A stretch of DNA of 64,000 bases from Rhodospirillaceae bacterium (GTDB taxonomy: Bacteria; Pseudomonadota; Alphaproteobacteria; Azospirillales; Azospirillaceae), in assembly GCA_029267445.1 (NCBI GenBank), contig JAJUIU010000011.1:1-64000 (forward strand), written 5' to 3'. This document shows, one piece after another, positions 197 through 16,980 of this stretch. A model generated the notes under the pieces. That model saw nothing but the letters and a program-made list of their open reading frames with translations, did no database searches and had not been told where the DNA came from. Position 1 is the first letter of the stretch, and each line of letters starts with the position of its first letter. A program made the translations under genes and the position numbers.

Positions 197-664
197 TCAG
201 AGGGTCATGGCCGGAAGCGTGACGGCGAGGCCGCCCGCCGCGATGGCGATGCCATAGGGCTCCCGGTCGTCGGCCGCCGGACCGGCCCCGGGGCCGGTGG
301 CGGCCCGCCGGACGAAACGGCGGCGGATGAGCAGCGCGGTCGCCAGCAGGGCGCCCGTCACCATCATCACGTTGAGGAAGAGGGGAAGGTCGATCGGTGC
401 CACCCAGAGGCCGGCGGCCCCCAGCAGCTTCGCGTCGCCGCCGCCGATCCAGCCGATGGCGAACAGGCCGACGCCGGCCGCGAAGAGCGCGGCACCCGTG
501 GCGAGGTTTCCAACCCAGGGAACGTCGCCAGCCAGGGCGTAGAGGGGAAAGAGGGCCGCCAGCGCGATGCAGATCCGGTTCGGGATCAGATACCTGGCGC
601 CATCGCTCAGGGCGGCCGCGAGGAGGAGTGCTGACGCGATGCCGAGGAACATGACGGGGTCCAT
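197..664 (-). CDS. cpaA: Prepilin peptidase CpaA/TadV (A24 family)
   Basis: A 155-residue multi-helix inner-membrane protein. It carries the two aspartates of type IV prepilin peptidases: Asp21 in SDGARYLIPNR and Asp77 in the GxGD-like motif GGGDAK. The length is normal for the short Tad-type A24 peptidases, which lack the methyltransferase domain of PilD. It should cleave the leader peptides of the two Flp pilins (768-989 and 3664-3843) and of the TadE-like pseudopilins. It sits 103 bases after the Flp pilin, with a hairpin in the gap, and 14 bases before cpaB. The ATG is preceded by AGGTG. Confidence 0.93.
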   Translation of the reverse strand: MDPVMFLGIASALLLAAALSDGARYLIPNRICIALAALFPLYALAGDVPWVGNLATGAALFAAGVGLFAIGWIGGGDAKLLGAAGLWVAPIDLPLFLNVMMVTGALLATALLIRRRFVRRAATGPGAGPAADDREPYGIAIAAGGLAVTLPAMTL

Positions 665-717
665 GGCCGCACCTCAGCGCGAAAGGGAGGAGAAGGAACC
701 CGAGGCGGGGCCGGGCC

Positions 718-751
718 GGGACGCCGCGGGCCGGAGGCCGAACGGCGTCCC
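718..751 (-). terminator. Hairpin between Flp pilin and cpaA
   Basis: Arms 718-726 and 743-751 form a perfect 9-bp stem (GGGACGCCG/CGGCGTCCC) around a 16-base GC-rich loop. It lies 17 bases after the pilin stop in the direction of transcription, and no U tract follows. I read it as an attenuator or mRNA-stabilising hairpin that would let pilin mRNA exceed mRNA of the assembly genes. That role is inference. Confidence 0.45.
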
Positions 752-767
752 TGGGTCCCTGCCGGCA

Positions 768-989
768 TCAGCCCTCTTCGGCCGGGCAGGCCTCGCCGCC
801 TTCGATCGGCTCGCCGGTGGCGGCGCAGCTCAGCGTGTTGGCGACATCGGTGAACAGGTTGCCCAGCGACGTGCCCATGGCCGTCATGGCGATGATGGCG
901 GCGACGGAGATGAGGGCGGCGATCAGACCGTATTCGATGGCCGTGGCCCCAGACTCATTGCGGACGAACCGCCGAACCGTAGCGAACAT
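768..989 (-). CDS. flp: Flp family type IVb pilin
   Basis: A 73-residue pilin precursor. The motif NESGATAIEYGL gives a prepilin cleavage site after Gly14 with Glu at +5 and Tyr at +6, the Flp signature, followed by one hydrophobic helix. The C-terminal part is longer than in minimal Flp pilins and has two cysteines (CAATGEPIEGGEAC), which could form a disulfide. The ATG at 989 was chosen because GGAGGT lies 5 bases upstream and the open frame above it is not pilin-like. A promoter candidate lies 60-90 bases upstream, so the pilin may have its own transcript. It should be processed by CpaA and polymerised by the Tad machinery. Confidence 0.93.
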   Translation of the reverse strand: MFATVRRFVRNESGATAIEYGLIAALISVAAIIAMTAMGTSLGNLFTDVANTLSCAATGEPIEGGEACPAEEG

Positions 990-1049
990 TGGTACCTCCA
1001 GAAGTGGCTTCCGAAAGGGGCACCGGCCCCCTGTCAAGGCGACGCTTTC

Positions 1050-1078
1050 GGTATAGCCCACACGAAAGAGGTAAGCAA
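1050..1078 (-). promoter_or_regulatory. Candidate sigma-70 promoter for Flp pilin
   Basis: On the minus strand TTGCTT (1073-1078) and TATACC (1050-1055) are separated by 17 bases. They sit at the edge of an unusually AT-rich stretch (about 1075-1220) within a GC-rich genome. The predicted start is about 55 bases before the pilin ATG. This comes from pattern matching only. Confidence 0.4.
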
Positions 1079-1243
1079 ATAAAAAATCACTGTCGAATAA
1101 GAGAAACCGCAATCATTTCAAGTGTTTGTATTGTGCTGGCGAAATGCCGATGAAGTAAAAAGAAGTTCATGGTATTGAAGAAGCGATCTGCGACTTCTTT
1201 ATATGGAAAACATTTCGAAATTCGTGCCATCCACGCCCTGGCG

Positions 1244-1263
1244 CCGGTCGCGGACGCGACCGG
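1244..1263 (-). terminator. Hairpin directly after the tadE-like gene
   Basis: CCGGTCGC (1244-1251) and GCGACCGG (1256-1263) form an 8-bp perfect stem with a 4-base loop, starting at the base after the stop codon. There is no U-tract, so it may be a weak terminator or a 3'-end stabiliser that separates the tadG-tadE transcript from the pilin unit. Confidence 0.45.
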
Positions 1264-1671
1264 TCACGGGGTCAGGGGAACCCGGGCGCGGCCTTCGATG
1301 GGCACGCCGCTGATCGGGATCAGCCCAGCCACGGCGTCGAAGCGGCCGGCGATGCGGACCGTCACGAAATCCTGTCCGGAGACGCGGTCCCTTTCGACCC
1401 GCACCGTCACGCCGGCCGGTAGCGGGTTTCCCAGCCGATGGCCCACCACGGCGGTGAGCTGGGCGTCGCTGACGCCGGGCGAGGCGAGCGCAAGGCGGGC
1501 GGAGTCCTCCGCCGCGAACTGGAGCGAGGCGCGCAGCCAGAACAGCCTGCCCAGCTCCACCACGCCGAGCAGCAACACGATCACGATGGGGCCATAGATC
1601 GCGAACTCGATGGCCGCGGCACCCCGCCGGCATCGTCCCAGGCGTTGCAGGAGCGGGCCGAGCATCAGCAT
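1264..1671 (-). CDS. tadE: TadE-like pseudopilin
   Basis: A 135-residue protein with the TadE N-terminus RRGAAAIEFAIYGPIVIVLL: a prepilin-peptidase-type Gly17 with Glu22 at +5, then one hydrophobic helix. The rest is a periplasmic domain of mixed beta character. TadE/TadF are minor pseudopilins needed for Flp fibre assembly and are processed by CpaA. The start ATG overlaps the stop of the upstream TadE-like gene by one base (TGATG), so the two are translationally coupled. A hairpin follows immediately after the stop. Confidence 0.85.
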   Translation of the reverse strand: MLMLGPLLQRLGRCRRGAAAIEFAIYGPIVIVLLLGVVELGRLFWLRASLQFAAEDSARLALASPGVSDAQLTAVVGHRLGNPLPAGVTVRVERDRVSGQDFVTVRIAGRFDAVAGLIPISGVPIEGRARVPLTP

Positions 1672-2111
1672 CAGCGCACCCGGAACTCGGCGGCCCCGCG
1701 CAGGTCCAGGGCACCAGGCAGGCCGGGCCAGGGGAACAGGGGCGTGTAGGGCTGGCTGACGGAGACGCGGATGCGCAGGCTGGGCAGGGCGGTGCCGCAG
1801 GTGGATGTGCAGGCGACGGTGTTTCCGGCTGGGCAGGTGCAGATGCGCTCGACCTCCACCGCCGCCGTGGGCGGGATCGGCGACGCGGCGAGGATCGCCG
1901 TGCGCATGGTGTCCGGATCGGTCGGACGGTTCGCCGCGATGGCGATACCGGCCCTGGCGGCGCTGGTCAGCACGCTGTTCTGGTAGACGGCGAGGCCCAC
2001 GTCGGTCACGCCGATCACCAGGAGCAGCAAAAGGGGCAGCAGGAAGACGGTCTCCACCGCCACCCCGCCGCCCTCGTCCTTCAACAGTCGCCGCGTCCGG
2101 CGTTCGCGCAT
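1671..2111 (-). CDS. TadE/TadF-like pseudopilin with Cys-rich segment
   Basis: A 146-residue protein starting with a basic segment and then GGGVAVETVFLLPLLLLLVIG, which again places Glu at +5 from a possible processing Gly (Gly15), followed by one membrane helix. After about 60 periplasmic residues comes a tight cysteine cluster (CTCPAGNTVACTSTC, four Cys in 15 residues), which is not usual for TadE and suggests disulfides. It is coupled by one base to the next TadE-like gene and lies 22 bases after tadG. It is probably the second minor pilin (TadF role) of this locus. Confidence 0.8.
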   Translation of the reverse strand: MRERRTRRLLKDEGGGVAVETVFLLPLLLLLVIGVTDVGLAVYQNSVLTSAARAGIAIAANRPTDPDTMRTAILAASPIPPTAAVEVERICTCPAGNTVACTSTCGTALPSLRIRVSVSQPYTPLFPWPGLPGALDLRGAAEFRVR

Positions 2112-2133
2112 GATCCCGCCTCCGCCGTCGGCG

Positions 2134-3456
2134 TCAGGAGACCAGGCGGGCGACCCGGGGCGAGATGGTGCGCACCCCGGCGGCGGCGCAGTTGCGGTCG
2201 TCCAGCTGGGCGTTGCCGGTGAAGGTCACGATCCGCGCCACCACCTGGGTGCAGCCGGGCGCGGTGGTGACGTTGCCGCCGGCCCAGCGCACCTCGCGCC
2301 GGGGCATGTAGACGGCACCCGTTATCCGCAGGTCCGATCCGCCGTTGAACCGGCTGGTGCCGTTCGTGGTGGCGATGCGGTCCTGCAGGATGGCGACGCC
2401 CGGATAGGGGTAAAGGCTGCCGGACCGGGTGGGTGCGGCGATGTCCACGTCGGCATTGCCGTTGATGTCCACATTGCCGACGGCCGACCCGCCGGAGCGG
2501 GAGGTGAGCACGATCGTCACCCCGTCGCCGGACGGGGAGCGTTGGCCAACCAGGCTGGCGCCGCCGTTCACCTGGAGATCGCCGCCGACGATGTAGTAGG
2601 TGCCGGGCGCCATGGTCACGGTGGCGCCCGCGTTGATCGTCAGGCTGCCGCAGATCACGCCGTGCGTGGCGGGGCTGATCGTCTGCGTGCCCTGGAGGCG
2701 GGGGTTGTTGGCGAGGCAGGCGCCCGGGTTCGGTGCCGGCAGGCCCGCATAGGGATCGTCCAGCGCCCAGCCGCCGGTCACCGGCGGGCGGTCCAGGTCC
2801 AGATCGGTGTTGGACCCGGTGCTGATGCCGCCCACGGTCCACAGGCTGTCCGCCTTGATGGCGGCGTTGCCGGTCACCCGGATGGCGGACGCGCTGTTGG
2901 AATTGGAGGCGATGATGCAGTTGTCGAGCGACAGGTCCACCGTGCCGCTCGACCCGATGGCGGCGGAGGCGACGCCGTCCAGCGCCAGCACGCAGGCCGT
3001 GGAGTTCGTCTCCACCGCCGCCACGGCGCGGGCCTGGATGGTCATCGGGCCGTCGCGGAACAGGCTGGCGAACAGGGTCGGCTCCCGCCGCGTCACCGTC
3101 ACCTCCACCGTCGGGGTGGCGCCGAAGACGCCGGCGGGGTGCAGGGTGACGGCCACGTCCGTGTTGGGCGTGCCGCCATGGCCATTGCGGCGGGCGTCGG
3201 TGACGGCCGAGGCTTCGATCGCGGCGCGGAGGCCGCCCTTGGCCAGCTCGATGGCGCCCGACAAGGCGGCGGCGTCGGCCGCCGTCTGCGCCTGCCGGCG
3301 CATCATGTACCAGCTTCCGACCTCCACGCCGGCGCCGACCGCGCCGACGGCCATGGGTGCCGTCAGCGCCACCAGCGAGAGGGCGGCCCCCCGCCGGTCG
3401 CGCGCCAGATCGCGCAGCAGGACGGCGATGGTCTTGCGGGCATGCGGCTTGGTCAT
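2134..3456 (-). CDS. tadG: TadG-like Flp pilus-associated protein
   Basis: A 440-residue protein. The N-terminus (DRRGAALSLVALTAPMAVG, then SWYMMRRQAQTAADAAALSGA) matches the TadE/G-like N-terminal domain: a prepilin-like helix followed by an AADAAALAGA-type motif. The remaining 350 residues are rich in Gly, Asn, Thr and Val with short repeats such as VTGNAAIKADS and GNVDINGNADVDIAAP, suggesting a secreted beta-helix or beta-sandwich domain. TadG is usually an anchored surface or periplasmic part of the Tad pilus. It leads an operon with the two TadE-like genes, and a promoter candidate lies 45 bases upstream. Confidence 0.85.
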   Translation of the reverse strand: MTKPHARKTIAVLLRDLARDRRGAALSLVALTAPMAVGAVGAGVEVGSWYMMRRQAQTAADAAALSGAIELAKGGLRAAIEASAVTDARRNGHGGTPNTDVAVTLHPAGVFGATPTVEVTVTRREPTLFASLFRDGPMTIQARAVAAVETNSTACVLALDGVASAAIGSSGTVDLSLDNCIIASNSNSASAIRVTGNAAIKADSLWTVGGISTGSNTDLDLDRPPVTGGWALDDPYAGLPAPNPGACLANNPRLQGTQTISPATHGVICGSLTINAGATVTMAPGTYYIVGGDLQVNGGASLVGQRSPSGDGVTIVLTSRSGGSAVGNVDINGNADVDIAAPTRSGSLYPYPGVAILQDRIATTNGTSRFNGGSDLRITGAVYMPRREVRWAGGNVTTAPGCTQVVARIVTFTGNAQLDDRNCAAAGVRTISPRVARLVS

Positions 3457-3843: not shown

Positions 3844-4104
3844 GCGCCGATCCTGACGCATGCGCGCGATTTCGGATATTGCCCAGAAGTACGGGTCCGC
3901 CCGCGCGCGGTTTCCGCGTGGTCGCGCTAAGGGCGGACCCGGCACTCGCCGCCCACTGCCGGGTCCGCTTCGCCGATGCGATCCGAATGGGCCGAAAGGG
4001 GGCGGGCCGGCCCTGGCGGCGCGATGGGATGGCGGCGTTGACGCCGCTGGCTCGCGGCTGTTAGTATTCGCCCGACTTTGCAATCAAAATCCGGAATTCA
4101 GGCG

Positions 4105-4404
4105 ATGGAACTGCTTACGATAGACGATTTCAAGCCATTCGAGGGCCAAGCCTTTAAGATCAAAATCGCGGAGGAAAACTGGCTAGACTTGGTGTTGACC
4201 AGCGTCACCGGGTCAAAGGTGTTCAATTATCCGGGAAAGGCGCGCGATCCGTTTTCCCTGTTCTTCGACGGAACCAAGGATAACTGCTGCCGGCAGGGCA
4301 TTTACCACCTGCGGCATGAGTCCGGCTGGACCACGGACATCTTCCTGGTCCCGATCGCCGCCAACCCGGACGGCACCTTCCGCTATCAGGCCCTGTTCAA
4401 CTGA
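4105..4404 (+). CDS. DUF6916-type small protein
   Basis: A 99-residue soluble protein starting MELLTIDDFKPFEGQAFKI. The pattern DDF..F.GQ.F, later PFSLFFDG, then QGIYHLRHE and FLVPI, matches small proteins annotated as DUF6916, whose role is unknown. They often lie next to tail-collar (MdpB-like) genes, as here. The ATG at 4105 was chosen over one nine codons upstream because the family starts at this point. The local base composition is less GC-rich than around it. A strong hairpin follows and separates it from the convergent acetyltransferase. Confidence 0.75.
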   Translation: MELLTIDDFKPFEGQAFKIKIAEENWLDLVLTSVTGSKVFNYPGKARDPFSLFFDGTKDNCCRQGIYHLRHESGWTTDIFLVPIAANPDGTFRYQALFN

Positions 4405-4414
4405 CGGCGGCGCC

Positions 4415-4439
4415 GGACGGACCGCGCCCCGGTCCGTCC
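4415..4439. terminator. Bidirectional terminator-like hairpin
   Basis: GGACGGACC (4415-4423) and GGTCCGTCC (4431-4439) form a perfect 9-bp stem with a 7-base loop. It lies between the convergent DUF6916 gene (ends 4404) and the acetyltransferase gene (ends 4457), so it could serve both. There is no clear U-tract on either side. Confidence 0.5.
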
Positions 4440-4456
4440 ACGCGCTCCGTCCACGC

Positions 4457-4996
4457 TCAGGGCCGCCAGCGCATCAGCCGGTAGGGGCCGTGTTCCCCCT
4501 CCTCCACGAAGCCCAGCCGGTCGTAAAGGCGCCGGGCCGGGTTGAACACCTCCACATGGATGCTGACGGACCGGCCGGTCATCCGGCCGGCCTCCTGGAT
4601 CCGCCGCAGCAACGCCGTGCCCAGGCCACCGTTGCGGGCGGCGGCCAGCAGCCCGATGTCGACGATCCGGATGTCCTCCGGGTGGCCCCGGTACAGATAC
4701 AGCCGGCCCACCGGCTCCCCCGCCCGTTCCACCACCAGGAAATCGGCGTCGGCGTAGGCCTTCCCGTAGTGCATGCGCTGGGCGTCGAACTGCTGGTCCA
4801 GGAAGGCGACGCGCGTGGCGTCATCCCAATCCAGCAGGTCCTTCAGCTCGTCCCACCGCATCTCCCGGTACAGGCGGCGGAGGAACGGGATGTCGGCCTC
4901 CGTCTCCCGCCGGAACGCGACCGGGAGGGCGGCCAGATCCGGCCCCGGATCCAACGCGGAAGCCGGGGCCGGCGCCTGACGTGGTGCCGCCGTCAC
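4457..4996 (-). CDS. GNAT family N-acetyltransferase
   Basis: A 179-residue GNAT-fold protein. The acetyl-CoA binding motif is visible as RNGGLGTALL (residues 121-130), preceded by the beta-4 strand IVDIGLL and followed by the C-terminal motif NPARRLYDRLGF. The substrate is unknown. The GTG start overlaps the stop of the upstream tail-collar gene (GTGA), so it is the last gene of a four-gene operon with three tail-collar proteins. GNATs in such operons may modify the collar proteins or a ligand, but nothing in the sequence decides this. Confidence 0.85.
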   Translation of the reverse strand: MTAAPRQAPAPASALDPGPDLAALPVAFRRETEADIPFLRRLYREMRWDELKDLLDWDDATRVAFLDQQFDAQRMHYGKAYADADFLVVERAGEPVGRLYLYRGHPEDIRIVDIGLLAAARNGGLGTALLRRIQEAGRMTGRSVSIHVEVFNPARRLYDRLGFVEEGEHGPYRLMRWRP

Positions 4997-5541
4997 GGGA
5001 AGTCGGGGAAGATGCCGTCCGTGCAGATGCAGAACCGCACCGCAAGGAACGGCTGCCGGTTTTCGTGCGCACCGTTGCCGCCGGTGAGGTCGATGCTCGC
5101 CGGGTGCAGGTTCGTGTTGGGACTCCCAGTGGCAAAGGCGTTCTGCGACGTGAACGTGGTGCCGTTGACCACGCCGACAAGGTTGGGCAGAACGGTGGGG
5201 CTTGGCGTGTTCGCCACATTGGCCACGCCGCCAGCCAGCTCACCACCCATGCTGTGCGTATGGCCGGGCATCTGGTTCACGGTCAGCGTGACGGTATTGG
5301 TGCCCGTGGCCTTGTTCTGTCCCAGTTCAGTGACGCTTCCAGTGGCCGTGCCCATGGGGACGGAGGACTGCAGGTTGGGCGTGGCGAAGCTCTGATTCTG
5401 CGTCCCGCCATAGAGGTTGCCGATCAGCGCATAAAGCGCCTGGTACTGACCGACCGGCAACAGCGTGCCGTCGCATGTGGCCCAGTCCTGCGGGGCGAAG
5501 GTGTAGGGAAGGATGCGGATTTCGCCGATAAAGGGATCCAT
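4993..5541 (-). CDS. Tail-collar (MdpB-like) protein, copy 1
   Basis: A 182-residue protein with the phage tail-collar fold. It starts MDPFIGEIRILPYTFAPQ, then DWATCDGTLLPV and ALYALIGNLYGGT, with a metal-site-like His pair in PGHTHS and a C-terminal strand FLAVRFCICTDGIFP. The family includes the microcystin-dependent protein MdpB and short-tail-fibre collar domains, where an HxH motif can bind Zn at the trimer axis. It is the third gene of a tandem triplet, 14 bases after copy 2, with a strong GGAGG ribosome site. There are no other phage genes nearby, so this is a cellular trimeric fibre-like protein of unknown function. Confidence 0.85.
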   Translation of the reverse strand: MDPFIGEIRILPYTFAPQDWATCDGTLLPVGQYQALYALIGNLYGGTQNQSFATPNLQSSVPMGTATGSVTELGQNKATGTNTVTLTVNQMPGHTHSMGGELAGGVANVANTPSPTVLPNLVGVVNGTTFTSQNAFATGSPNTNLHPASIDLTGGNGAHENRQPFLAVRFCICTDGIFPDFP

Positions 5542-5555
5542 GGTGTCGCCTCCGC

Positions 5556-6104
5556 TCAGGGTCGCGTCGGGTAGGTGCCGCTGGTGCAGATGATGAAGTT
5601 CATCGGCAGGGACGGCATGACGTTGGCGTGCGGCTGGGAGCCGCCCTCATTACTGACCGCCTGGGCGTTGAAGCTGAAATCGCGGCCGGCCGCGTTCTCC
5701 TTCATGTACAGGTTGAGTCCGCCGGTGCCGGTGGCCAGCACAACCCCGGTCCCGGGCGTGTTGGTGGTGGCGTCCGCCGTCGTGCCGAGCACATGGTGCT
5801 CGTGCACCGGCAGCTGCGCCTGCGTCAGGGTGACCGTCGTGTCGCCGCCGTTCTGTCCCAGCACGCGGTTGGTGCCGGCCCCACCGTTGTTCGTGGTCGG
5901 CCCCAGGCCCCGATGCACCGGCACACGGTTGCGCAGGTCCGGCAGACGGAAATTCTGCACGCCGTCACCGCCGTAAATCGTGCCGATCAGCGAGTACAGG
6001 GCCATGTTATCGCTGATATTGATCAAGCTACCGTCGCAGAGCGCCCAGTTGGTTGGCACTCTCCCAATCGGCCAGATTTTGATTTCACCAAGGTAGGAAT
6101 CCAT
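5556..6104 (-). CDS. Tail-collar (MdpB-like) protein, copy 2
   Basis: A 182-residue paralogue of its neighbours: GEIKIWPIGRVPTNWALCDG at the start, LYSLIGTIYGGDG, a His-rich loop LPVHEHHVLG at the place of HxH, and the ending MNFIICTSGTYPTRP. The start at 6104 has GGGAG upstream; an open frame extends 27 codons further but lacks family similarity. It differs strongly from copies 1 and 3 in the central variable part, which fits heterotrimers or different binding tips. Confidence 0.85.
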   Translation of the reverse strand: MDSYLGEIKIWPIGRVPTNWALCDGSLINISDNMALYSLIGTIYGGDGVQNFRLPDLRNRVPVHRGLGPTTNNGGAGTNRVLGQNGGDTTVTLTQAQLPVHEHHVLGTTADATTNTPGTGVVLATGTGGLNLYMKENAAGRDFSFNAQAVSNEGGSQPHANVMPSLPMNFIICTSGTYPTRP

Positions 6105-6156
6105 CGTTTCGCTCCCAATCTTGAAGGTGGCGTCGCTTCGCTTGCTGTCCGTCCCT

Positions 6157-6696
6157 TCACCAGGGCCGGCTGGGGTATACGCCATTCAGCGCGATGCAGA
6201 AATTCACCACCAGGAATGGCTGCATGTTGGGGTGCGGCTGGCCTCCGCCCGCATTGTCCATGACCTTGGGATGGAGCGGCGACGTCGTCTGCCCCGGCGC
6301 GGCGTAGATGTTCGTCCCGGTGGCTGGGGCCGCGTAAATGTTGCCGGTGGGATTCCGCTGGCTCGCCGCGCTGGTCGTCGCCATAAGGCCATGGTTGTGG
6401 GTCGGCATCTGCACCTCGGTCAGCACCACGGTTTCCGTCCCGCCCGTCTGTCCCTGGTTGTAGGCCACCCCCGTGGTGTTGGTGCTGGAATTGGTGGCCA
6501 TGCCCACCGGCACCCGACCGCGCATGTCCGGCAGGTTGAAGTTGTTCACGCCGTCGCCGCCGAACGTCCTGCCAAGCAGTGAATACAGCGCCGCGTTCTG
6601 GTTCATCTGCAGCTGCTGACCATCACAGCTCGCCCAGGACTGCGGCGCGAATGGCAGCGAGTACATCCTGACCTCGCCGACAAATGGGTCTGTCAT
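6157..6696 (-). CDS. Tail-collar (MdpB-like) protein, copy 3 (first in operon)
   Basis: A 179-residue collar-fold protein starting MTDPFVGEVRMYSLPFAPQ, with SWASCDGQQL, LYSLLGRTFGGDG, the HxH loop MPTHNHGLMA and the C-terminal strand PFLVVNFCIALNGVYPSRP. The ATG at 6696 follows GGAGG. It leads the four-gene operon collar-collar-collar-GNAT. An inverted repeat (6796-6818) in a short AT-rich region upstream is a candidate control site. Confidence 0.85.
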   Translation of the reverse strand: MTDPFVGEVRMYSLPFAPQSWASCDGQQLQMNQNAALYSLLGRTFGGDGVNNFNLPDMRGRVPVGMATNSSTNTTGVAYNQGQTGGTETVVLTEVQMPTHNHGLMATTSAASQRNPTGNIYAAPATGTNIYAAPGQTTSPLHPKVMDNAGGGQPHPNMQPFLVVNFCIALNGVYPSRPW

Positions 6697-7159
6697 CGTT
6701 TCCTCCGTCCCCCTCAGGCCGACGCGCCACTCGTCGAAGGTGGGCGTCGGCCGGAAGCACACCAGAAAACATGCCTTTCGGAAAGTCCCTTTCGCATATG
6801 ACGACATAAACGTCATATTTCATACGGGATAGTGCAGACGGGGACGGTTCGTCGCGCCAGCGGGACGGCTTCCGGCGGGATCGCTTGTAGAGGCCGCTGC
6901 GGGCACGACGCCGCGGGAGCGCCATCGGTGTCCAGGGCTGTTCCCACCCGCCGGGGGCCTTTCCGCCTGACGGCGCGGGCGCGCCGGGCGGTGCCCAAAG
7001 GCTGCCCCAACACCTGCGTTGCTGGTGACCCGACTTGCGTCAGCGTGGCGCGCGGAGCATAGCGATGATGGCACCCATCCAGGGCCGCGCCGGACGATCC
7101 GGGCTTGAACGAATCCGCAACTGATGGTACGTGAATGCATGGACTTCTGGAGCGAAACC
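6697..7159. other. 463-base gap between collar operon and lasso precursor
   Basis: This gap separates two divergent units. Its left part (about 6770-6835) is AT-rich and holds the dyad described separately. The rest is GC-rich; the open frames in it code for Arg/Ala-rich strings without ribosome sites and are not believable genes. It should contain the promoters of the collar operon (leftward) and of the lasso precursor (rightward), but I cannot place a convincing -35/-10 pair for the latter. Confidence 0.6.
6796..6818. promoter_or_regulatory. 23-base dyad, possible operator
   Basis: ATATGACG (6796-6803) and CGTCATAT (6811-6818) are perfect inverted arms with a 7-base spacer in an AT-rich patch. 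It lies 100 bases before the first collar gene and 340 bases before the lasso precursor. Its size and symmetry fit a dimeric regulator site, but no regulator is identifiable. Confidence 0.4.
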
Positions 7160-7336
7160 ATGCCAAACGACCTGAACCACGAGACCGTTGGTGACATCAA
7201 CGCGGGCGAAGGGGATCGCGATGGCGTGGCGGGCAGGTCTCCTTGGAGCGCGCCGACCCTCACGGTTCATGACATCGCGCGCACCACGGCGGAGAACACG
7301 ACCGGAAATGATGACGGGGTTCCAGACTTGTCGTGA
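7160..7336 (+). CDS. Lasso peptide precursor (paeninodin type)
   Basis: A 58-residue peptide directly before the lasso cyclase. The ATG at 7160 follows GGAG by 7 bases. The leader holds the recognition pattern W-x-x-P-x-L (W29, P32, L34) and then DIARTT. Aligned with paeninodin-type leaders, in which a Thr is the second-last leader residue, cleavage should fall after Thr43. That gives the core AENTTGNDDGVPDLS (residues 44-58, bases 7289-7333). Ala1 would form the macrolactam with Asp8 or Asp9, leaving a tail of 6-7 residues ending in Ser. A C-terminal Ser fits the HPr-kinase-like enzyme encoded nearby. The leader's first 25 residues are acidic and Gly-rich. The gene assignment is strong from context; the exact cut is inferred. 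Confidence 0.85.
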   Translation: MPNDLNHETVGDINAGEGDRDGVAGRSPWSAPTLTVHDIARTTAENTTGNDDGVPDLS

Positions 7337-7375: not shown

Positions 7376-9235
7376 ATGACAGGGTTCGCTGGCGTGCTGC
7401 TTGACGGCCCCATTGTGGGTGGCGATGGATGCGCACTGATTGAGGATGTATCGCGGGCGTTTGAACCCGTGCGCACATTCCGACAGGGTCGGCTTTGGAT
7501 CGGCGTGCGGGCCGGTGGCCGGTTGTTCAGCGACTCTGACGGTGGGCCGGCGATTGCCGTCAACGCCATGTTCGGCGTCTTGGGACAGGGGCTCCACCCC
7601 TCCGGCGCCTCCGAACTGCGGCGGGCCCTGACCCGGGATTGGGCGGGTGCTTTGGCGCGGCTTCGCGATCCGACCGCCCTGGTCTGCAGCCTTCCCGACG
7701 ATGCGGGCGTGTTGCTCTCGGCTGAGCATCTGGGCCAACGGACCGTCTACCACACGCGGATCGGGGGCGCCGTCGCCTTCGCCACCGGCCTTCGCCCCTT
7801 GCTGGCCCTGCCCGGCGTCTCGCGCGACCTGGACGAGGACTGGCTCGCCGCCTTCCTGACGGACCTCGCCCCGGCCCCGGACGCCACCCCCTATGCCGCG
7901 ATCCGCCGGGTTCCACCCGCATCAGCCCTGATCCTCCGGCCCGACGGGTCGCGCACCCTGCACCGCTACTGGGAACCGGACTGGGACCGGCGCCTGCGCC
8001 TTGAGCGCGACGAGGAATACGTGGAACAGGGCCGCGCCCTGCTGGACCAGGCGGTGCGCCGGCACATGCCGGCAGAGGGTCCGATCGTCTCCATGCTCAG
8101 CGGTGGCCTCGATTCGGCCGGTGTGGCGGCGACGGCGGCCCGCATCGCGGCGCCGCACACCGTGCATGCCCTGACCATGGTGCCACCCGATGGCATCCCC
8201 CGCTATCGGCCGCCCGGTCAGTTCGAGGATGAGCGGGAGCATGCGGGCGCCGTCGCCCGCCTTTACCCGAACATGGCGTGGGAGGCCCTGTCCAACCCCG
8301 GCCTTCACCCGATCGACGAGAATCCCCTGCGCCTGTTTCTGCCCCTCGGCATGCCGGCGCGGAACGTGATGAACATCGGCTGGTTCGCCCCCCTGTTCGA
8401 TCGGGCGCGCGCCCTGGGGGCCAAGACCATCCTGTGCGGCAATGTTGGCAACATGACCCTGTCCTGGGACGGGCTGTCCGGCCTCGCCGGGATGGCGGGG
8501 CGGGGAGACTGGCTCCGCCTGTGGCGGGAGGCGTCCGGTCTGGCCGCCAGCCGCAGGGTCTCCCCGATGCGCATCCTCCTGCGTTACGGTGTGGCCGCGC
8601 ATCTTCCGCGCCGGGTCCAGAGCGCCCTCCGGCGGGGCAGCCGTATCCGCAAGGCGACCGACGGGCGGGTCAGCGCCATCCATCCGGATTTCGCCGCCGC
8701 TCACAGCATTCGGCAGCGACTGATGGATGCCGGCCTCGGATATCCGGGGGACAGCGTCACCAGTCGGCGACGCTGGCTCGTCAAGGCGCAAGGGCTACCC
8801 GCACTCACCGATCCGGTGACGGACGTCTTCGGGGTGGAGATGCGGGCCCCGACCGCGGACATCGACCTGCTGGAGTTCTGCTTCGCCGTGCCGGACGAAC
8901 AGTACATCCGCGATGGCCGCACCCGCTGGCTCGCCCGCCGCGTGCTGGCCGACCGGTTGCCGCCGAAGGTCGTGGATGAGACGCGGAAGGGCAAGCAGTG
9001 CCCGGAGTTCCTGCACAGGATGACCCTGCGCCGCGACGCCATCGCCGAGGGGGTGGCGGCGCTGGAGCGGTCGCCCCTGGCCTCCCGCGTGCTTGACGTG
9101 GCACGGATGAAGCGCCTCGTCGCAGACTGGCCGACGGACGCCGCCACCACCTCCTTCGACGACTATGGTGCGGTCCTCAACCGCGGGCTCCACATCGGGC
9201 AGTTCCTGCGCTGGATCGAAGGTGGCAACCAGTAG
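7376..9235 (+). CDS. Lasso cyclase, asparagine-synthetase-like (C protein)
   Basis: A 619-residue ATP-dependent amide ligase of the asparagine synthase B fold. It begins MTGFAGV without the nucleophile Cys2 of true glutamine-hydrolysing enzymes, as in lasso cyclases. The ATP pyrophosphatase motif is SGGLDSAG (residues 242-249). In lasso biosynthesis this enzyme adenylates the side chain of Asp/Glu at core position 7-9 and joins it to the N-terminal amine while the tail is threaded. It starts 39 bases after the precursor stop, so both are probably on one transcript. The gene ends 18 bases before the convergent kinase gene. Confidence 0.93.
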   Translation: MTGFAGVLLDGPIVGGDGCALIEDVSRAFEPVRTFRQGRLWIGVRAGGRLFSDSDGGPAIAVNAMFGVLGQGLHPSGASELRRALTRDWAGALARLRDPTALVCSLPDDAGVLLSAEHLGQRTVYHTRIGGAVAFATGLRPLLALPGVSRDLDEDWLAAFLTDLAPAPDATPYAAIRRVPPASALILRPDGSRTLHRYWEPDWDRRLRLERDEEYVEQGRALLDQAVRRHMPAEGPIVSMLSGGLDSAGVAATAARIAAPHTVHALTMVPPDGIPRYRPPGQFEDEREHAGAVARLYPNMAWEALSNPGLHPIDENPLRLFLPLGMPARNVMNIGWFAPLFDRARALGAKTILCGNVGNMTLSWDGLSGLAGMAGRGDWLRLWREASGLAASRRVSPMRILLRYGVAAHLPRRVQSALRRGSRIRKATDGRVSAIHPDFAAAHSIRQRLMDAGLGYPGDSVTSRRRWLVKAQGLPALTDPVTDVFGVEMRAPTADIDLLEFCFAVPDEQYIRDGRTRWLARRVLADRLPPKVVDETRKGKQCPEFLHRMTLRRDAIAEGVAALERSPLASRVLDVARMKRLVADWPTDAATTSFDDYGAVLNRGLHIGQFLRWIEGGNQ

Positions 9236-9253: not shown

Positions 9254-10159
9254 TCAGGCCATGGCGAGCCCCTCCAGCATGTCCAGCATCTCCGGCAGGT
9301 CGGCGAAATCCGTTGTGCGGACCATCTGCCAGACTGGCACGCGCTGCGCCAGGCCGGCCGCCGCACGGAGCACGCGCAGCCGCCCGTGCAGCGCCTCGGC
9401 CAGATAGACACGGTAGGTCATGGCGTCCAGCACCGCCGCCGCATGGGCCGGCGCACAGCGGGTCAGGGCCGGCCGATGGGCCGCCGGATCGGTCCGCAGA
9501 TGCACGATGGCCGTCAGCGGTCTGGGCATGGGATCGAACGCCGCCGGCATCGGCACATGCCATTTGCCGGCCTTGCGCGCCACCGGCTGGTGCCCCTCCT
9601 GTCCGATCTCCAGCGCCGCGCGGCTCCTGTCCCACAGCCTGACGACGGGGAAGCAGGGCTGCGCCAGGGCGGTGTCCGGATCGATCACCAGCACGTCGTC
9701 GCCCAGCAGCCGGTGGCCCCGCCGCACCAGGGCGGCCGCCGTGGTGGACTTTCCGGCCCCGCTGTGCCCCGCGATGGCCAGCGCCCCGGCCCCGCCCAAG
9801 GTCCCGATGGCGCAGGCATGCAGCGGGATCGCCCCGCGCTGGTGGCAGATCACCCCCAGGCCGGGGCCCAGCAGCCAGCTCTGCACCTCGGCCAGAGCTG
9901 CCCCCGGTGCAGGATCGACGACGACGTTCCGCCCATCGGTGATGGCGATGCGCACGCAGCCCGGCGCGTCGATGACGACAGCACCGTCCGCGCCCACGGC
10001 GACCATGTCGCGCTCCAGCCGCAGGGGGGCCAGCGGGGGCGGCACGGCGCCCAGGCGCAGCCTGATGTCCGGCGGCGTCTCCGGCGCCGGGCAGGGGAAC
10101 AGGTGCGGAAGCGCCATCTCCGCCTCCAGGGTCCAGCCGCTGATGCGGTAATGGTGCAT
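9254..10159 (-). CDS. HPr-kinase-like lasso precursor kinase
   Basis: A 301-residue protein with a P-loop GHSGAGKST (131-139) followed by GHRLLGDDVLVID, the arrangement of the HprK C-terminal kinase domain. HprK-like proteins in lasso clusters (paeninodin, pseudomycoidin) phosphorylate the C-terminal Ser of the precursor, and the precursor here ends in Ser. The N-terminal 100 residues are a beta-rich domain unlike bacterial HprK. There is no PTS system nearby, which argues against true HPr as substrate. The start overlaps the B2 protease stop by one base. It is the last gene of the unit exporter-B1-B2-kinase. Confidence 0.88.
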   Translation of the reverse strand: MHHYRISGWTLEAEMALPHLFPCPAPETPPDIRLRLGAVPPPLAPLRLERDMVAVGADGAVVIDAPGCVRIAITDGRNVVVDPAPGAALAEVQSWLLGPGLGVICHQRGAIPLHACAIGTLGGAGALAIAGHSGAGKSTTAAALVRRGHRLLGDDVLVIDPDTALAQPCFPVVRLWDRSRAALEIGQEGHQPVARKAGKWHVPMPAAFDPMPRPLTAIVHLRTDPAAHRPALTRCAPAHAAAVLDAMTYRVYLAEALHGRLRVLRAAAGLAQRVPVWQMVRTTDFADLPEMLDMLEGLAMA

Positions 10160-10620
10160 CAGTGGGCCCTTGGCGCCGCGTACAGGCAGGCGTTCGGCGT
10201 GAAACCGTCCGCCTCCGCCCCGCCGATCAGGGCCTCGCCCCCCGTCACCAGCCAAGCGTGGGCGGTCATGACCCCGTCATCCAGGGCGACGCCGAACACG
10301 ATGTGCGCGGGGATGCGGCGGCGCGTCAGCATCATCCGCCCGGCCACGCAGCGGACCAGGCAGCTGCTGTGCCAAGGCAGGCGGGCGGCCATGGCGTCCA
10401 CCATGCGTCCCACGCCCCGCGCCCGCGCCAGAATTGGCGCCGACTGGGGATCCGCTCCGGCCAGCGCGGGGCCGGGATCGGGGCTGACCCCGCCGAACAG
10501 GCGGGCGGTGAGGCGGAACGGCAACCGGAACACCAGGAGCCACGCCACGCACAGGGCGAGCGCCGCCTCCAGCCGGAACAGCCGTGCGCGCATGCCGCGC
10601 GGGGCCGCCGCCGGGCTCAC
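10159..10620 (-). CDS. Lasso leader peptidase B2 (transglutaminase-like)
   Basis: A 153-residue protein with the McjB C-terminal fold. The catalytic Cys is probably Cys87 in SSCLVRCVAGRMML, followed by RRRIPAHIVFGV and the His motif TAHAWLV (His121). The third triad member is not obvious. In split-B lasso systems B2 cuts the leader after B1 has bound it. A hydrophobic helix near residues 18-32 may tether it to the membrane. The GTG start overlaps the B1 stop (GTGA), so the two are translated together, as expected for one split enzyme. Confidence 0.9.
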   Translation of the reverse strand: MSPAAAPRGMRARLFRLEAALALCVAWLLVFRLPFRLTARLFGGVSPDPGPALAGADPQSAPILARARGVGRMVDAMAARLPWHSSCLVRCVAGRMMLTRRRIPAHIVFGVALDDGVMTAHAWLVTGGEALIGGAEADGFTPNACLYAAPRAH

Positions 10621-10895
10621 GCCACGACTTTCACCAGCCCTTCGCCGGCCATGCGGTCCAGCAGGCGCAGGACGTCCGCGGTGATCACCTCCAGCGGGGC
10701 GGCATAGGCCTGTTCCAGGGCCGCGCAGAGGTCACCGACCCGCACCTGCCGTTCCAGACGGTTCCAGATGTCGCAGCCGATGGCGTCCAGGGAAAAGTAC
10801 TGCCCGCTCTCAACGTCCATCATGACCAGTTCATCGCCGACCTCGCTGGACAGGCAATGATCCGTCCGGACGAGCACGGTGTCGATCGTCACCAT
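10617..10895 (-). CDS. PqqD-like RiPP recognition protein B1
   Basis: A 92-residue PqqD-fold protein. The pattern MMDVESGQYFSLDAIGCDIWNRLE and a C-terminal helical part (VITADVLRLLDRM) is typical of RRE domains that bind RiPP leader peptides. Here it should bind the W-x-x-P-x-L leader of the precursor and present it to B2. The ATG at 10895 follows AGGGTG. It is coupled by a 4-base overlap to B2. A 157-base gap separates it from the exporter gene. Confidence 0.9.
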   Translation of the reverse strand: MVTIDTVLVRTDHCLSSEVGDELVMMDVESGQYFSLDAIGCDIWNRLERQVRVGDLCAALEQAYAAPLEVITADVLRLLDRMAGEGLVKVVA

Positions 10896-11052: not shown

Positions 11053-12981
11053 CTATCCGGAGGGGAAGGGGCTGACCGGAGCCGCCGGCCGACCCTCCTG
11101 CGCCGGGTCGAGCATGCCGAGCTCGGCGAGACGGGCGCCCGCGGCGCGGCGCACGGCCGGCCAGTCGCCCGCCGCCGCAACCCGCCCCTCCTCCAGCAGG
11201 ATGACATGGTCGGCGTGGCGCACCGTGGCCGGCCGGTGGGCCACCACCAGCACCGTCGCCCGGCCACGCAGCCGATCCAGGGTCGCGGCCACCAGCCCCT
11301 CCGTCTCCTGGTCGAGCGAGGCCGTCGCCTCGTCCAGCACCAGCAGCGACGGGCGGCGCAGCAGTGCCCGGGCCAGCGCCACCCGCTGGCGCTCCCCGCC
11401 CGACAGCGCCATGCCCCGGTCGCCGACGACCGTGTCCAGCCCGCGCGGCAGACGGTCGACGAAGGCGAGCCCCGCCGCCTCCTCCAGGGCCGCGCGCAGC
11501 GCCGCCTCGTCCGCCTCCGGCCGGGCCAGCAGCAGGTTCGCCCGGATCGTGTCGTGGAACAGGAACGGGTCCTGCGGCACCAGCCCGACCCGCCGGCGCC
11601 ACGCCCGGCGCAGCCCGGCCGACAGGGGCACGCCGTCGATCGCGACGGCACCCTCCGTGGGGGACGCAAGCCCCGCGACCAGATCGGCCAGTGTCGATTT
11701 GCCGGCACCCGTCGGCCCGATCAGGGCCGTGACCCGGCCCACGGGAATGACCGCGTCCACCCCGCGCAGGCCCGCGCGCCCATCGGCGAACCGCACCGCC
11801 ACCCCCTCCAGCCGGATCTCACCGACGGGCTCCGGCGCCGCCTCCGCCGGTTCCGGCTCCGCCGCCGCGCGGCAGCGCGCCAGCGCCCGCTCGTAAGCCT
11901 CCAGGGCGGGCAGGGACGCCGTCATCCGCCGCCAGTGCGTCAGGGCGCGCAGCAGGGTCTGGCTCAGCCGCCCGAATGCCAGGATCAGGGCCGCCGCCTC
12001 GGCCAGCGACAGGCCCATGACGGTCACTGCGGCCAGCAGGGCCACGGCCACGGTCACCGCCGCCGCCACCTGCAGCGCCGCCTTCTCCAGCGCCTGCATC
12101 CGAACATGGTCGATCTGGGCCGCGCGCAGGGCCGCGAAGTGCCGCTCCATCAGGCCGGCGCGCGCCCGCTCGGCGCCGAACGCCTTGATCACCCTGAGAC
12201 CGGCGAGATCGTCGGCGAGGTCGGCCATCATCGCGCGCGACGCCTCGCCCTGCCGCCGGCCCAGGGCGAAGGAAAGCCGGCCCAGCCGCCGCGTCGCCAC
12301 AAGGGCGAGGCCGGCCAGCGCCAGCGTCAGCAGCGTCAGCCCCGGTGACAGGACCAGCGCCACCACGAGCATGGTGGGCACCAGCATCAGCGCCACGAGC
12401 AGCGTCATCACCGATTCGAAGACGATACCCATGCGGCCGACCTCGACCGTCATGATCTCCTTCAGGTCCGATCCGCGCAGGCTCTGGAAATCCGGCCAGG
12501 ACATCGCCAGCGCCGCCGCGTGCAGGCGGGACCGCAGGCCGTCCAGCAGCCGTGTGCGCAGGGTCGCCGCGGCCACGCTCCGCCCGGCAAGAAGGGCGGC
12601 GGCCGCCGCGACGATCAGGAGATAGAGGCCGAGGGCTCCCGCCAGCGGGGCCATGCCCACGGGCTCCGCCGCGCCGCCGCCGAGGCCGAGTGCGGAAAGC
12701 AGCGGGATCAGCATCAGAATGCCGATCCCCTCCGCCGCCGTGGCGGCAGCCGTCAGCCCGAGAAGGCCGCCGATCCGGCGCCCCCCGGCTTCGTCCGCGA
12801 TGAGGCGGAGGAAGCGGCGGGCGAGGGCGGCCGGTGTCGCGGGCGGAGCGCCGTCCAGGTGACCGGAATGGGGTGCCAAGGCATCGATCCGCTGCTGACG
12901 GCCCCGGTCATTCCGAGGCGGCGCCGACTGTCGCGCGCATTGTTCCGGATGCGCGGCGCGGGCGCAACGGCCGCCGACCAT
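11053..12981 (-). CDS. ABC transporter, lasso peptide exporter (D protein)
   Basis: A fused membrane plus ATPase half-transporter of about 640 residues. Six helices are followed by an ATPase with Walker A GPTGAGKST (near residue 422), Q-loop VPQDPF, signature LSGGERQ (near 526), Walker B LLVLDE (near 546) and the switch His in VAHR. In lasso clusters such proteins export the mature peptide and often give self-immunity. The start is uncertain: ATG 12981 is given, but the family similarity begins near 12879, where a TTG is possible, and the frame is open to 13008. Its gene is the first of a leftward unit with B1, B2 and kinase. Confidence 0.9.
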   Translation of the reverse strand: MVGGRCARAAHPEQCARQSAPPRNDRGRQQRIDALAPHSGHLDGAPPATPAALARRFLRLIADEAGGRRIGGLLGLTAAATAAEGIGILMLIPLLSALGLGGGAAEPVGMAPLAGALGLYLLIVAAAAALLAGRSVAAATLRTRLLDGLRSRLHAAALAMSWPDFQSLRGSDLKEIMTVEVGRMGIVFESVMTLLVALMLVPTMLVVALVLSPGLTLLTLALAGLALVATRRLGRLSFALGRRQGEASRAMMADLADDLAGLRVIKAFGAERARAGLMERHFAALRAAQIDHVRMQALEKAALQVAAAVTVAVALLAAVTVMGLSLAEAAALILAFGRLSQTLLRALTHWRRMTASLPALEAYERALARCRAAAEPEPAEAAPEPVGEIRLEGVAVRFADGRAGLRGVDAVIPVGRVTALIGPTGAGKSTLADLVAGLASPTEGAVAIDGVPLSAGLRRAWRRRVGLVPQDPFLFHDTIRANLLLARPEADEAALRAALEEAAGLAFVDRLPRGLDTVVGDRGMALSGGERQRVALARALLRRPSLLVLDEATASLDQETEGLVAATLDRLRGRATVLVVAHRPATVRHADHVILLEEGRVAAAGDWPAVRRAAGARLAELGMLDPAQEGRPAAPVSPFPSG

Positions 12982-13093: not shown

Positions 13094-14299
13094 TTGGATC
13101 GGATACCGCTTCACACCGGTTCCGACCGGCTGCCCCCGCTGCTGCCGCCCGGGCCGGAGGCGTCGCTGCTGCTCGCGGCGGCGCGCTGGCCATGCGGCAC
13201 GGGCGGCGATGCGCCCCCTCCGTCCCGTTCACCCATCGAGCCGGCGGCGCTGGCGGCGGCCCAGCGGCACAGCCTTGTCCCCGCCCTGCACGCATACCTC
13301 GCGGAAGCCGATCCCGACGCTGTGACCGACGCGCTGCGCGAGGCCCGGCGGCGCTGCACCCTCGCCACCCTGCGGCAGCGCGCGGCGCTGCGCCGGCTGC
13401 TGGGCGCCCTGGCCGAGAAGGGTGTCGAGGCGCTTGTGCTGAAGGGGCTGGCTCTTTCCCTCCAGCTGTACGGTGCGGCCGATCTCAGGCCGGCCGTCGA
13501 CATCGACCTGCTCGTCGCTCCGGAGCGGGCCGAACAGGCCGGGCGGGTGCTTGAGGCGCTGGGGTTCCGCCCCGCCAGCCGGATCGACGTGCGGCGGCTG
13601 ACGCGGCTGACCAAGGACGCGATTTATCTCGGCCCGGACGGCGTGGCGGTCGAGCTGCATTGGCGCCCGCTGCGGAACCGGCGACTGCTCGATTGGCGCT
13701 TCGCCGATCTTTGGGCGGAGCGTGAGACCCTGCGCGCGGACGATGCCGAGCTGCACACCTTGCCGCGCGACCGCAACGCCGTGTTCCTGGCCCTGCACGG
13801 CATTCATCACGGCTGGCAGAAGCTGCGCTGGCTGGCCGACATCGCGCTGCTGCTGCGGGGCGAAGGCGCCGTGGAGGGTGCGCTGGACCGGGCCCGGCGC
13901 GACCGGGCCCTGCCGGCGATGCTGCACACCCTGGTACTGGCGCACCGCCTGATCGGACTGCCGCTGTCACCCGACCACGTCGCTGCGTGGCGCGCCTCCC
14001 GCCGGGCGGCGGCGATCGACGCGACCGTCCTGGCCTGGAACGAGCGCAGGGCGGACCGACGGCCCGGACTTGTCCCGCCCTGGCTCGGCGAGCATTGGAT
14101 GGAGCGGCGGGCGCACCTGCTGCTGTGCCCGGACGCCGCCAGCGTGGTGGAGGAACTGGCGATCCTGTTCCGCAGTCCGGCGGACCGGGACGCCTTCCCA
14201 CTGCCCGACCGGCTGGACTGGCTCTATCCCGTGCTGCGTCCGGCGATGCTGCTGGCGCGCGCCGCACGCGGATATCGGGCGCGGCGGGACGACGGCTGA
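13094..14299 (+). CDS. Nucleotidyltransferase family protein, lasso tailoring candidate
   Basis: A 401-residue protein of the 'uncharacterised nucleotidyltransferase' family (NTP_transf_5). The diagnostic pattern is VLKGLALSLQLYG (LKG at 116-118), then LRPAVDIDLLV with the metal-binding Asp136 and Asp138. Related genes accompany the kinase in paeninodin/pseudomycoidin-type clusters and were linked to further modification of the phosphorylated C-terminus. It is transcribed away from the exporter, with about 110 bases between them. The likely start is TTG 13094; later starts are possible. The link to the lasso product rests on position and family precedent. Confidence 0.85.
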   Translation: MDRIPLHTGSDRLPPLLPPGPEASLLLAAARWPCGTGGDAPPPSRSPIEPAALAAAQRHSLVPALHAYLAEADPDAVTDALREARRRCTLATLRQRAALRRLLGALAEKGVEALVLKGLALSLQLYGAADLRPAVDIDLLVAPERAEQAGRVLEALGFRPASRIDVRRLTRLTKDAIYLGPDGVAVELHWRPLRNRRLLDWRFADLWAERETLRADDAELHTLPRDRNAVFLALHGIHHGWQKLRWLADIALLLRGEGAVEGALDRARRDRALPAMLHTLVLAHRLIGLPLSPDHVAAWRASRRAAAIDATVLAWNERRADRRPGLVPPWLGEHWMERRAHLLLCPDAASVVEELAILFRSPADRDAFPLPDRLDWLYPVLRPAMLLARAARGYRARRDDG

Positions 14300-14359: not shown

Positions 14360-14384
14360 AGGCGTCCAAGCGGCGCTTGCGCCT
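14360..14384 (-). terminator. Hairpin at the end of the wecG-like gene
   Basis: AGGCG/CGCCT and CAAG/CTTG arms form a stem with a 2-base bulge and the 5-base loop CGGCG. It overlaps the stop codon of the leftward gene and follows the convergent nucleotidyltransferase gene by 60 bases. There is no U-tract, so confidence is low. Confidence 0.3.
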
Positions 14385-15183
14385 AACCTTGGAATGGAGG
14401 GCGGCGCAGAAAGCCGACGCTTTCAAGAACCACCAGAACGAGGAAGCGCGGCACCCCGAACAGGTAACGTCGCCAAAGGCGCCGCGGCTCGGAGCAGAGC
14501 CGGAACAGCCATTCCAGAGCGGCCCGCTGCATCCACCGTGGTGCCATCTTCTTAAGACCGGTATGGAAGTCGAACGCCGCGCCGACACCAATCAGGACAG
14601 GCGCGTTCAAGAGCGGGCGCATTTCAGCCATCCAATGCTCCTGCTTGGGGGTGGAGATACCCACCCAGACGATCTCGGCTCCCGATTGGTTGATGGTCCG
14701 CGCGACGTCAGCCTTCTCGATCTCGGTCAGCGGACGGAAGGGGGGGCAGTAGGTGCCCTCTATCCGGATGCCTGGATACCGGGCCCGGATCCGTTCGCTC
14801 AGCAGGTCCGCGACCCCTTCGTCGCCCCCGTATAGAAAGTGCCCGACCTCGCCATGCCGGGTTTCCTGGAGCACCTTCATCATCAGGTCGGGGCCGTAGG
14901 TGCGGTCGAGGTGAAAGCCCCTGCTGCGCCCGATGTAGACGAGCGGCATTCCGTCCGGTGTCACCAAGCCGGCTTCCCCGAAGATGCGCCGAAGGGCCGG
15001 GCTTTTCCGCGCCTCCATGATCCCGTGCATGCTGGTCACCGTGACATAGGTACGGTGGCGCTCCGCGACCCAGCGCAGGATGCGGTCGCAGGAGTCGGAC
15101 AGGGTCGTGGCCGATATCCCGACGCCCAGGACACTGAAGAACTCAAGTCCATCCTCGCTCCTGGCGCGGAAGCGGTGTGGCAT
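14383..15183 (-). CDS. WecG/TagA/CpsF family glycosyltransferase
   Basis: A 266-residue GT26 enzyme. The family marks are VTVTSMHGIMEA, the active-site motif TPDGMP (75-80, Asp77 as general base), YGPDLM, and VWVGISTPKQEHWM followed by GVGAAFDFHTG. These enzymes transfer N-acetylmannosaminuronate, ManNAc or glucose to a polyprenyl-linked sugar early in polysaccharide assembly. The ATG at 15183 has AGGG upstream; one six codons earlier is also possible. It follows the polyprenyl-phosphate sugar transferase (15338-16843), the enzyme that would make its acceptor. Confidence 0.9.
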   Translation of the reverse strand: MPHRFRARSEDGLEFFSVLGVGISATTLSDSCDRILRWVAERHRTYVTVTSMHGIMEARKSPALRRIFGEAGLVTPDGMPLVYIGRSRGFHLDRTYGPDLMMKVLQETRHGEVGHFLYGGDEGVADLLSERIRARYPGIRIEGTYCPPFRPLTEIEKADVARTINQSGAEIVWVGISTPKQEHWMAEMRPLLNAPVLIGVGAAFDFHTGLKKMAPRWMQRAALEWLFRLCSEPRRLWRRYLFGVPRFLVLVVLESVGFLRRPPFQG

Positions 15184-15337
15184 CGGAGACCCTAGCGGCA
15201 TGGATCGGTGAACCTGGCAGTCGACGGTCCGGTGCGAAGGGACAGGCAGGCCATGCCCCTGGACCGGCGCCGCTTGCGGCGGCCGATGGCTTGGATGTCC
15301 ATCGAGCGGGAACGATCGGGTCCCGGCGGGCCGCCCC

Positions 15338-16843: not shown

Positions 16844-16980
16844 AGTCGCGCGATCACCCGTACCGACATCACCCGAGCCGCCGGCACCCTTGCGGCGCCG
16901 GGGCCATTGCGCTGGCCGTGCGCGCGGTTTGACGGCGTACGGTCGGACTGCGTACGGTCGGGCTGCGGACCGCGCGCCGC

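Follow-up and report, generated by a model that had tools for sequence, protein, structure and literature searches.

A predicted kinase-type lasso peptide with a very short tail, its group of related alphaproteobacterial precursors, and the linkage to phage tail collar genes

The window analysed here, a stretch of 64,000 nucleotides from a bacterium of the Azospirillaceae, holds a small open reading frame, A, with the cyclase gene C downstream of it. The genes K, B2, B1 and an ABC transporter run convergently to C and are followed by N on the plus strand (Table 1). As judged by sequence, this is a complete A-C-K-B2-B1-D-N lasso set, i.e., the gene set of pseudomycoidin, whose nucleotidyltransferase-family gene has its counterpart, at the family level, in the NTP_transf_5 gene of the window. 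The genes of a class II lasso pathway, B1 (RRE), B2 (peptidase) and C (cyclase), are all present, and A combines the class II features of an RRE-docking leader, a Thr at -2 and an Asp/Glu at core position 7-9.

Table 1. Features of the lasso peptide locus; positions are those of the window.
Feature	Position	Strand	Basis and remarks
DUF6916, GNAT and three tandem Phage Tail Collar genes	4078-6816		divergent, directly upstream of A
Lasso precursor gene A	7160..7336	+	58 aa, MPNDLNHETVGDINAGEGDRDGVAGRSPWSAPTLTVHDIARTTAENTTGNDDGVPDLS; sequence, motif uniqueness, homologous precursors next to related cyclase genes
Leader RRE-docking motif W29-S-A-P32-T-L34, counterpart of YxxPxL	7244..7261	+	W29 and P32 invariant
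Thr43 (favoured -2) and Ala44 (favoured -1)	7286..7291	+	predicted cut after 7291; Thr at L+9 in three nearest relatives
Favoured core, ENTTGNDDGVPDLS, 14 aa	7292..7333	+	alignment with L031, L032, L121; alternative core start 7289 (Ala44)
Asp52, favoured ring-closing residue, position 8 of favoured core	7313..7315	+	aligns with D of D-G-V/F in three nearest relatives
Ser58, C-terminal Ser, predicted kinase target	7331..7333	+	terminal Ser in relatives; adjacent kinase
Lasso cyclase C (asparagine synthase family)	7376..9235	+	PF00733 E 1.4e-26; NF033535 lass_lactam_cya E 7.7e-46, below cut-off
HPr-kinase-like precursor kinase K	9254..10159	-	PF07475 at cut-off, E 4.4e-8
Leader peptidase B2	10159..10620	-	NF033537 lasso_biosyn_B2 81.9 bits vs cut-off 33; PF13471
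RRE protein B1 (PqqD family)	10617..10895	-	PF05402 E 1.6e-18; NF033536 lasso PqqD E 4.7e-16, below cut-off
ABC transporter D, probable exporter, start uncertain	11053..12858	-	PF00005 and PF00664
NTP_transf_5 protein N, PsmN-like candidate for adding groups to phosphoserine	13094..14299	+	PF14907 E 1.5e-49

A GGAG sequence precedes the ATG at 7160, which opens a reading frame of 58 codons, and the 45 bases at its end (7289-7333, plus strand) encode AENTTGNDDGVPDLS. The leader carries W29-x-x-P32-x-L34 and D38-I39-x-x-T42-T43; its Trp29 and Pro32 recur in 21/21 aligned precursors, and the docking role of the corresponding YxxPxL motif has been described (PMC10368454). The combined pattern of W-x-x-P-x-L leader, Thr, acid and terminal Ser is matched at one place in the 64 kb window and in 0/60 Markov-random windows. 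By these sequence features the ORF is a real lasso precursor gene, encoded with the W-x-x-P-x-L leader as the original prediction had stated. A DNA-pattern search of the bacterium's own genome for further precursors was uninformative, since a control reading matched as often.

The putative kinase K keeps the His, GxxGxGKST and Asp-Asp motifs, and in a profile comparison with solved structures its best matches were HPr kinases; the catalytic motif of this HPr-like type matters in BsfK (PMC10368454). An HPr-kinase-like gene with an intact motif thus stands beside a precursor with a C-terminal Ser, the combination that marks a kinase-type lasso. The cyclase is 57-60% identical to those of its three nearest relatives (loci L031, L032 and L121), and its N-terminal domain (7376-7760) is shortened and divergent compared with theirs, having lost a segment that they keep. 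Such shortening would fit a cluster that has decayed or is silent and yields little or no product, as would the silence of the related bsf cluster in several hosts (PMC10368454), but all genes of the window cluster are open and both the kinase motif and the SGGLDS motif of the cyclase are retained, and we consider decay or silence very unlikely. Few of the examined loci have an N-type (NTP_transf_5) gene close to the lasso genes; its presence here agrees with the further tailoring that had been suggested, as in pseudomycoidin. Directly past the cluster, at 14383-16984, lie sugar transferase genes of the WecG/TagA and Bac_transf types (exopolysaccharide type).

To place the precursor among its relatives, the cyclase was used as a query against all 82 genomes available for the family (Azospirillaceae) and 289 genomes of the class. 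Fifty-eight loci were taken with their flanks, and ORFs that carry the leader motif and lie close to biosynthetic genes were listed, giving 55 candidate precursors from Azospirillaceae and other Alphaproteobacteria; the last residue was not used as a filter, and the final 55 were picked by hand, so some bias is possible. Kinase K as a single query found no related loci, and a search with an alignment of four cyclases returned one close relative, in Azospirillum oleiclasticum, on the same contig as genome G024. In the cyclase tree, the window groups with L031, L032 and L121 with a support of 100/100. For comparison, the sequences of known lassos (n=53) were taken from PMC12427821 and scored by the same rule as the set of 55.

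The original prediction placed the cut after Thr43, giving a 15-residue core with an N-terminal Ala. Counted from the Leu of W-x-x-P-x-L, A has Thr at both L+8 and L+9, so the leader alignment alone is ambiguous. Within the set, 32 precursors have Thr solely at L+9 and 15 solely at L+8; the window precursor and one other have it in both places. This spacing mostly follows the clades of the cyclase tree, and the 15 precursors with L+8 only sit in clades other than that of the window, the three nearest relatives all having Thr at L+9 only. With the predicted cut marked by a slash, the window reads L-TVHDIARTTA/ENTTGNDDGV, L121 reads L-SDYDIAGNTA/ITNCGSGSDGV with T-A at the same place as the window, L031 reads L-TEYDIVASTE/ITNCGSGSDGV and L032 reads L-TEYDIASSTE/GTNCGNGSDGF. 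In this gapless leader alignment, Thr43 matches the common Thr and Gly49 the common Gly5. A cut after Ala44, with Thr43 at -2 and a core starting from Glu45, is therefore favoured, and we think it likely. The alignment of homologous precursors that had been put forward as a check bore out the lasso precursor pattern and the terminal Ser, and it favours a cut one residue downstream, by which the core would have 14 residues with the two Asp at positions 7 and 8, instead of 15 residues with Asp at 8 and 9. The calculated [M+H]+ of the macrolactam is 1415.592 for the core from Glu45 (1495.558 with phosphate, 1657.611 with phosphate and hexose) and 1486.629 for the core from Ala44 (1566.596 and 1728.648 with the same additions).

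A cut after Thr43 would use Thr42, which is able to serve as -2, and would release AENTTGNDDGVPDLS with a nine-residue ring on Asp52 or an eight-residue ring on Asp51, the tail GVPDLS and a phosphate on the last Ser. Ala1 and Asp9 would then repeat the arrangement of paeninodin and pseudomycoidin, Asn3, Asp9 and Gly10 would align with the nearest relatives, and the 15 precursors from other clades show Thr at L+8 only. This reading would, however, need a one-residue leader deletion against the gapless alignment and the L+9 Thr of all three nearest relatives, and we hold it as a minority possibility. Under the favoured cut after Ala44, the ring would be one residue shorter than in L031, L032 and L121 (Asp9) and would begin with Glu. 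Glu1 is absent among the 53 known lasso peptides compared, which begin with G, S, A, C, L or W in the comparison table. The first core residue in our set is far more varied (G, N, A, V, I, L, K, T, M, S and P), and this variety leaves room for Glu1; in metanodin, the first residue is Asn (PMC12670498).

The adjacent acids that had been predicted in the core, Asp51 and Asp52, are encoded. When Thr(-2) sets the register, 42/55 precursors are predicted to carry an acid at position 8, and Asp52 is in our judgement very likely to be the ring acceptor under either cut. The three nearest relatives combine a predicted nine-residue ring with two Cys residues (position 4 and position 13 or 15), which could join ring and tail by a disulfide, a class III-like trait among proteobacterial lassos of the kinase type. 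The window core lacks both of these Cys residues.

At the other end of the core, the last residue in the set of 55 is Ser in 52 precursors and Thr, Gly and Ile in one each, Ser accounting for 11% at the remaining positions of the tail; the binomial probability of this enrichment (3e-46) ignores kinship and means 'far from chance' only. The near-constant terminal Ser makes the assignment of Ser58 as the kinase target well supported, and the claim of a terminal Ser with tailoring holds to this extent, Ser58 being present with kinase K next door. According to PMC9266682, the C-terminal Ser is the target of PadeK, ThcoK, SyanK and PsmK, PsmK (poly)phosphorylates it and PsmN installs hexoses on the phosphate. 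By analogy, Ser58 is very probably phosphorylated. BsfK phosphorylates a ring Ser and not the C-terminus (PMC10368454), so the presence of a kinase alone does not fix the phosphate site, and A also has Thr47 and Thr48 as alternative hydroxyls. Lasso loci without a local kinase were expected to lack the terminal Ser; this was not upheld, as their precursors also end in Ser. In G114, G242 and G339, there are 9-10 kinase homologues elsewhere in the genome, so the local-kinase test is not clean. Up to 14 HPr-kinase-like homologues were counted in one genome (G175 and G339), many of them away from the lasso loci taken.

The tail after Asp52, GVPDLS, has six residues, ends in Ser and has no aromatic plug, as had been claimed; it contains none of F/W/Y/H/R/K/M, and Leu57 is its largest side chain. 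The comparison shows that this is no peculiarity of the peptide. Predicted tails in the set of 55 range from 5 to 16 residues with a median of 8, whereas known lassos (n=53) have a median of 10 and a minimum of 6 (Mann-Whitney p 4e-7, kinship ignored, the lengths in the set being predictions). No F/W/Y is found in the predicted tail of 33/55 precursors, compared with 8/53 known lassos. Many tails in the set are predicted to have 5-8 residues, and most tails of the set lack F/W/Y; the short, plug-free tail therefore characterises the whole group, at the level of predicted cores. Three known lassos, huascopeptin, achromosin and chaxapeptin, are moreover just as small, with 13-15 residues in all and 6-7 in the tail (PMC12427821).

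With only V, P, D, L and S below the ring besides Gly, a phosphate or an N-added group could be the largest stopper. The idea that a phosphate or sugar on Ser58 holds the thread is a reasonable one, and it may now cover the whole precursor group. The tail may instead be too short and smooth to hold, in which case the product would be a lariat (branched-cyclic) with no stable thread, and phosphate and sugar would serve export, immunity or recognition; the six residues without F/W/Y, the five-residue tails predicted in some relatives (e.g., ATTVS and GNIAS) and the unthreading of caulosegnin I, which has an eight-residue ring, by heat (PMC13352647) are consistent with such a product. The known lassos with tails of 6-7 residues weigh against it, and we regard a lariat as unlikely. 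As far as we know, the products of lasso B and C enzymes are threaded, which also counts against the lariat.

Taken together, we consider it on balance probable that the product of this locus is a class II lasso peptide of the kinase type that is cut after Ala44, closed on Asp52 and phosphorylated on Ser58. B1 would bind the W-x-x-P-x-L leader and present A to kinase K, which would phosphorylate Ser58 on the linear precursor. B2 would then cleave after Ala44, and C would activate Asp52 and link it to the amine of Glu45, giving an eight-residue ring (ENTTGNDD) and a six-residue tail. N may add a sugar or nucleotide to the phosphate, and D would export the product. If the tail threads, the phosphoserine at residue 14, with or without a group added by N, would be the bulkiest group below the ring. 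We infer this order of steps from paeninodin, whose kinase takes the precursor and not the threaded peptide as its substrate (PMC9266682), and from bsf, in which B1 speeds both kinase and peptidase (PMC10368454).

Kinase-type lassos are already known, and the window peptide is, as its sequence reads, one with a very short tail and a member of a group. Pseudomycoidin (psmABCDK plus N, Bacillus pseudomycoides) shares the HPr-like kinase, the nucleotidyltransferase-family protein, the C-terminal Ser and the absence of Cys; its core, AGPGKRLVDQVFEDEDEQGALHHS, differs in having Ala1, Asp9 and a tail of 15 residues that includes F and HH, and the long acidic tail (14-15 residues) of this type is not found in the window peptide. 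Paeninodin (PadeK) and the ThcoK and SyanK systems, the last of proteobacterial origin, likewise have split B1/B2 proteins and a kinase that acts on the C-terminal Ser of the linear precursor, but the tail of paeninodin has 14 residues with F and HY. The bsf cluster of Bradymonas sediminis also consists of A, B1, B2, C, D, K and N genes, with a B1 that assists kinase and peptidase; it differs in Ile(-2), a 21-residue core, a phosphate on ring Ser3 and a C-terminal Asp. Huascopeptin and achromosin are of similar size (13-14 residues, six-residue tails), but they have aromatics in or ending the tail and are listed without kinase tailoring. Metanodin resembles the present set in its unusual first ring residue, its Asn1 being frequent in the set, and differs from the window in belonging to another cluster type without a kinase (PMC12670498). 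One odd core has thus become a group of 55 precursors with short predicted tails, a near-constant terminal Ser and a free first residue, which makes two questions testable: what holds so short a thread and what the phosphate is for.

A handle on the biological function of kinase-type lassos may be provided by the collar/GNAT/DUF6916 block directly upstream of A. Its three collar genes are the only ones in the 4.23 Mb genome. Collar genes lie within the flank taken at 24/36 family lasso loci, several of the rest being on short contigs; given 255 collar genes in 82 genomes, most of them 4-8 Mb in size, the expected number in 36 such flanks is well below one. Three other families also have this block next to lasso genes (L124, L132 and L137), and at L146 and L147 it adjoins cyclases that are more divergent and come with K, B1 and B2. 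In G017 and G070, the collar trio and the cyclase are on different contigs, and in one genus the block occurs without lasso genes (L153, L155, L157 and L158). The gene order around the block differs among loci, which argues for a functional tie over mere inheritance. Among the papers searched, none mentions a lasso peptide together with a tail collar, and we found no report tying lasso peptide clusters to this block.

The three collar proteins fall into three orthologous groups, with best cross-locus hits keeping their position in 34/35, 35/35 and 35/35 cases, as expected if the trio forms a hetero-oligomer. That they present or recognise the peptide is a guess. In its broadest form, the proposal would be that a wide alphaproteobacterial group of very small lassos (5-8-residue tails) uses a (glyco)phospho-Ser, and not a side chain, as the lower stopper, with the three collar proteins presenting, delivering or recognising the phosphopeptide; we rate this as improbable. 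The collar protein profile matches the T4 short tail fibre, and an AlphaFold model of collar protein 1 is confident in its N-terminal third only (mean pLDDT 69.7). On the minus strand at 197-3456, the window also contains Tad/Flp pilus genes (prepilin peptidase, TadE/G-like).
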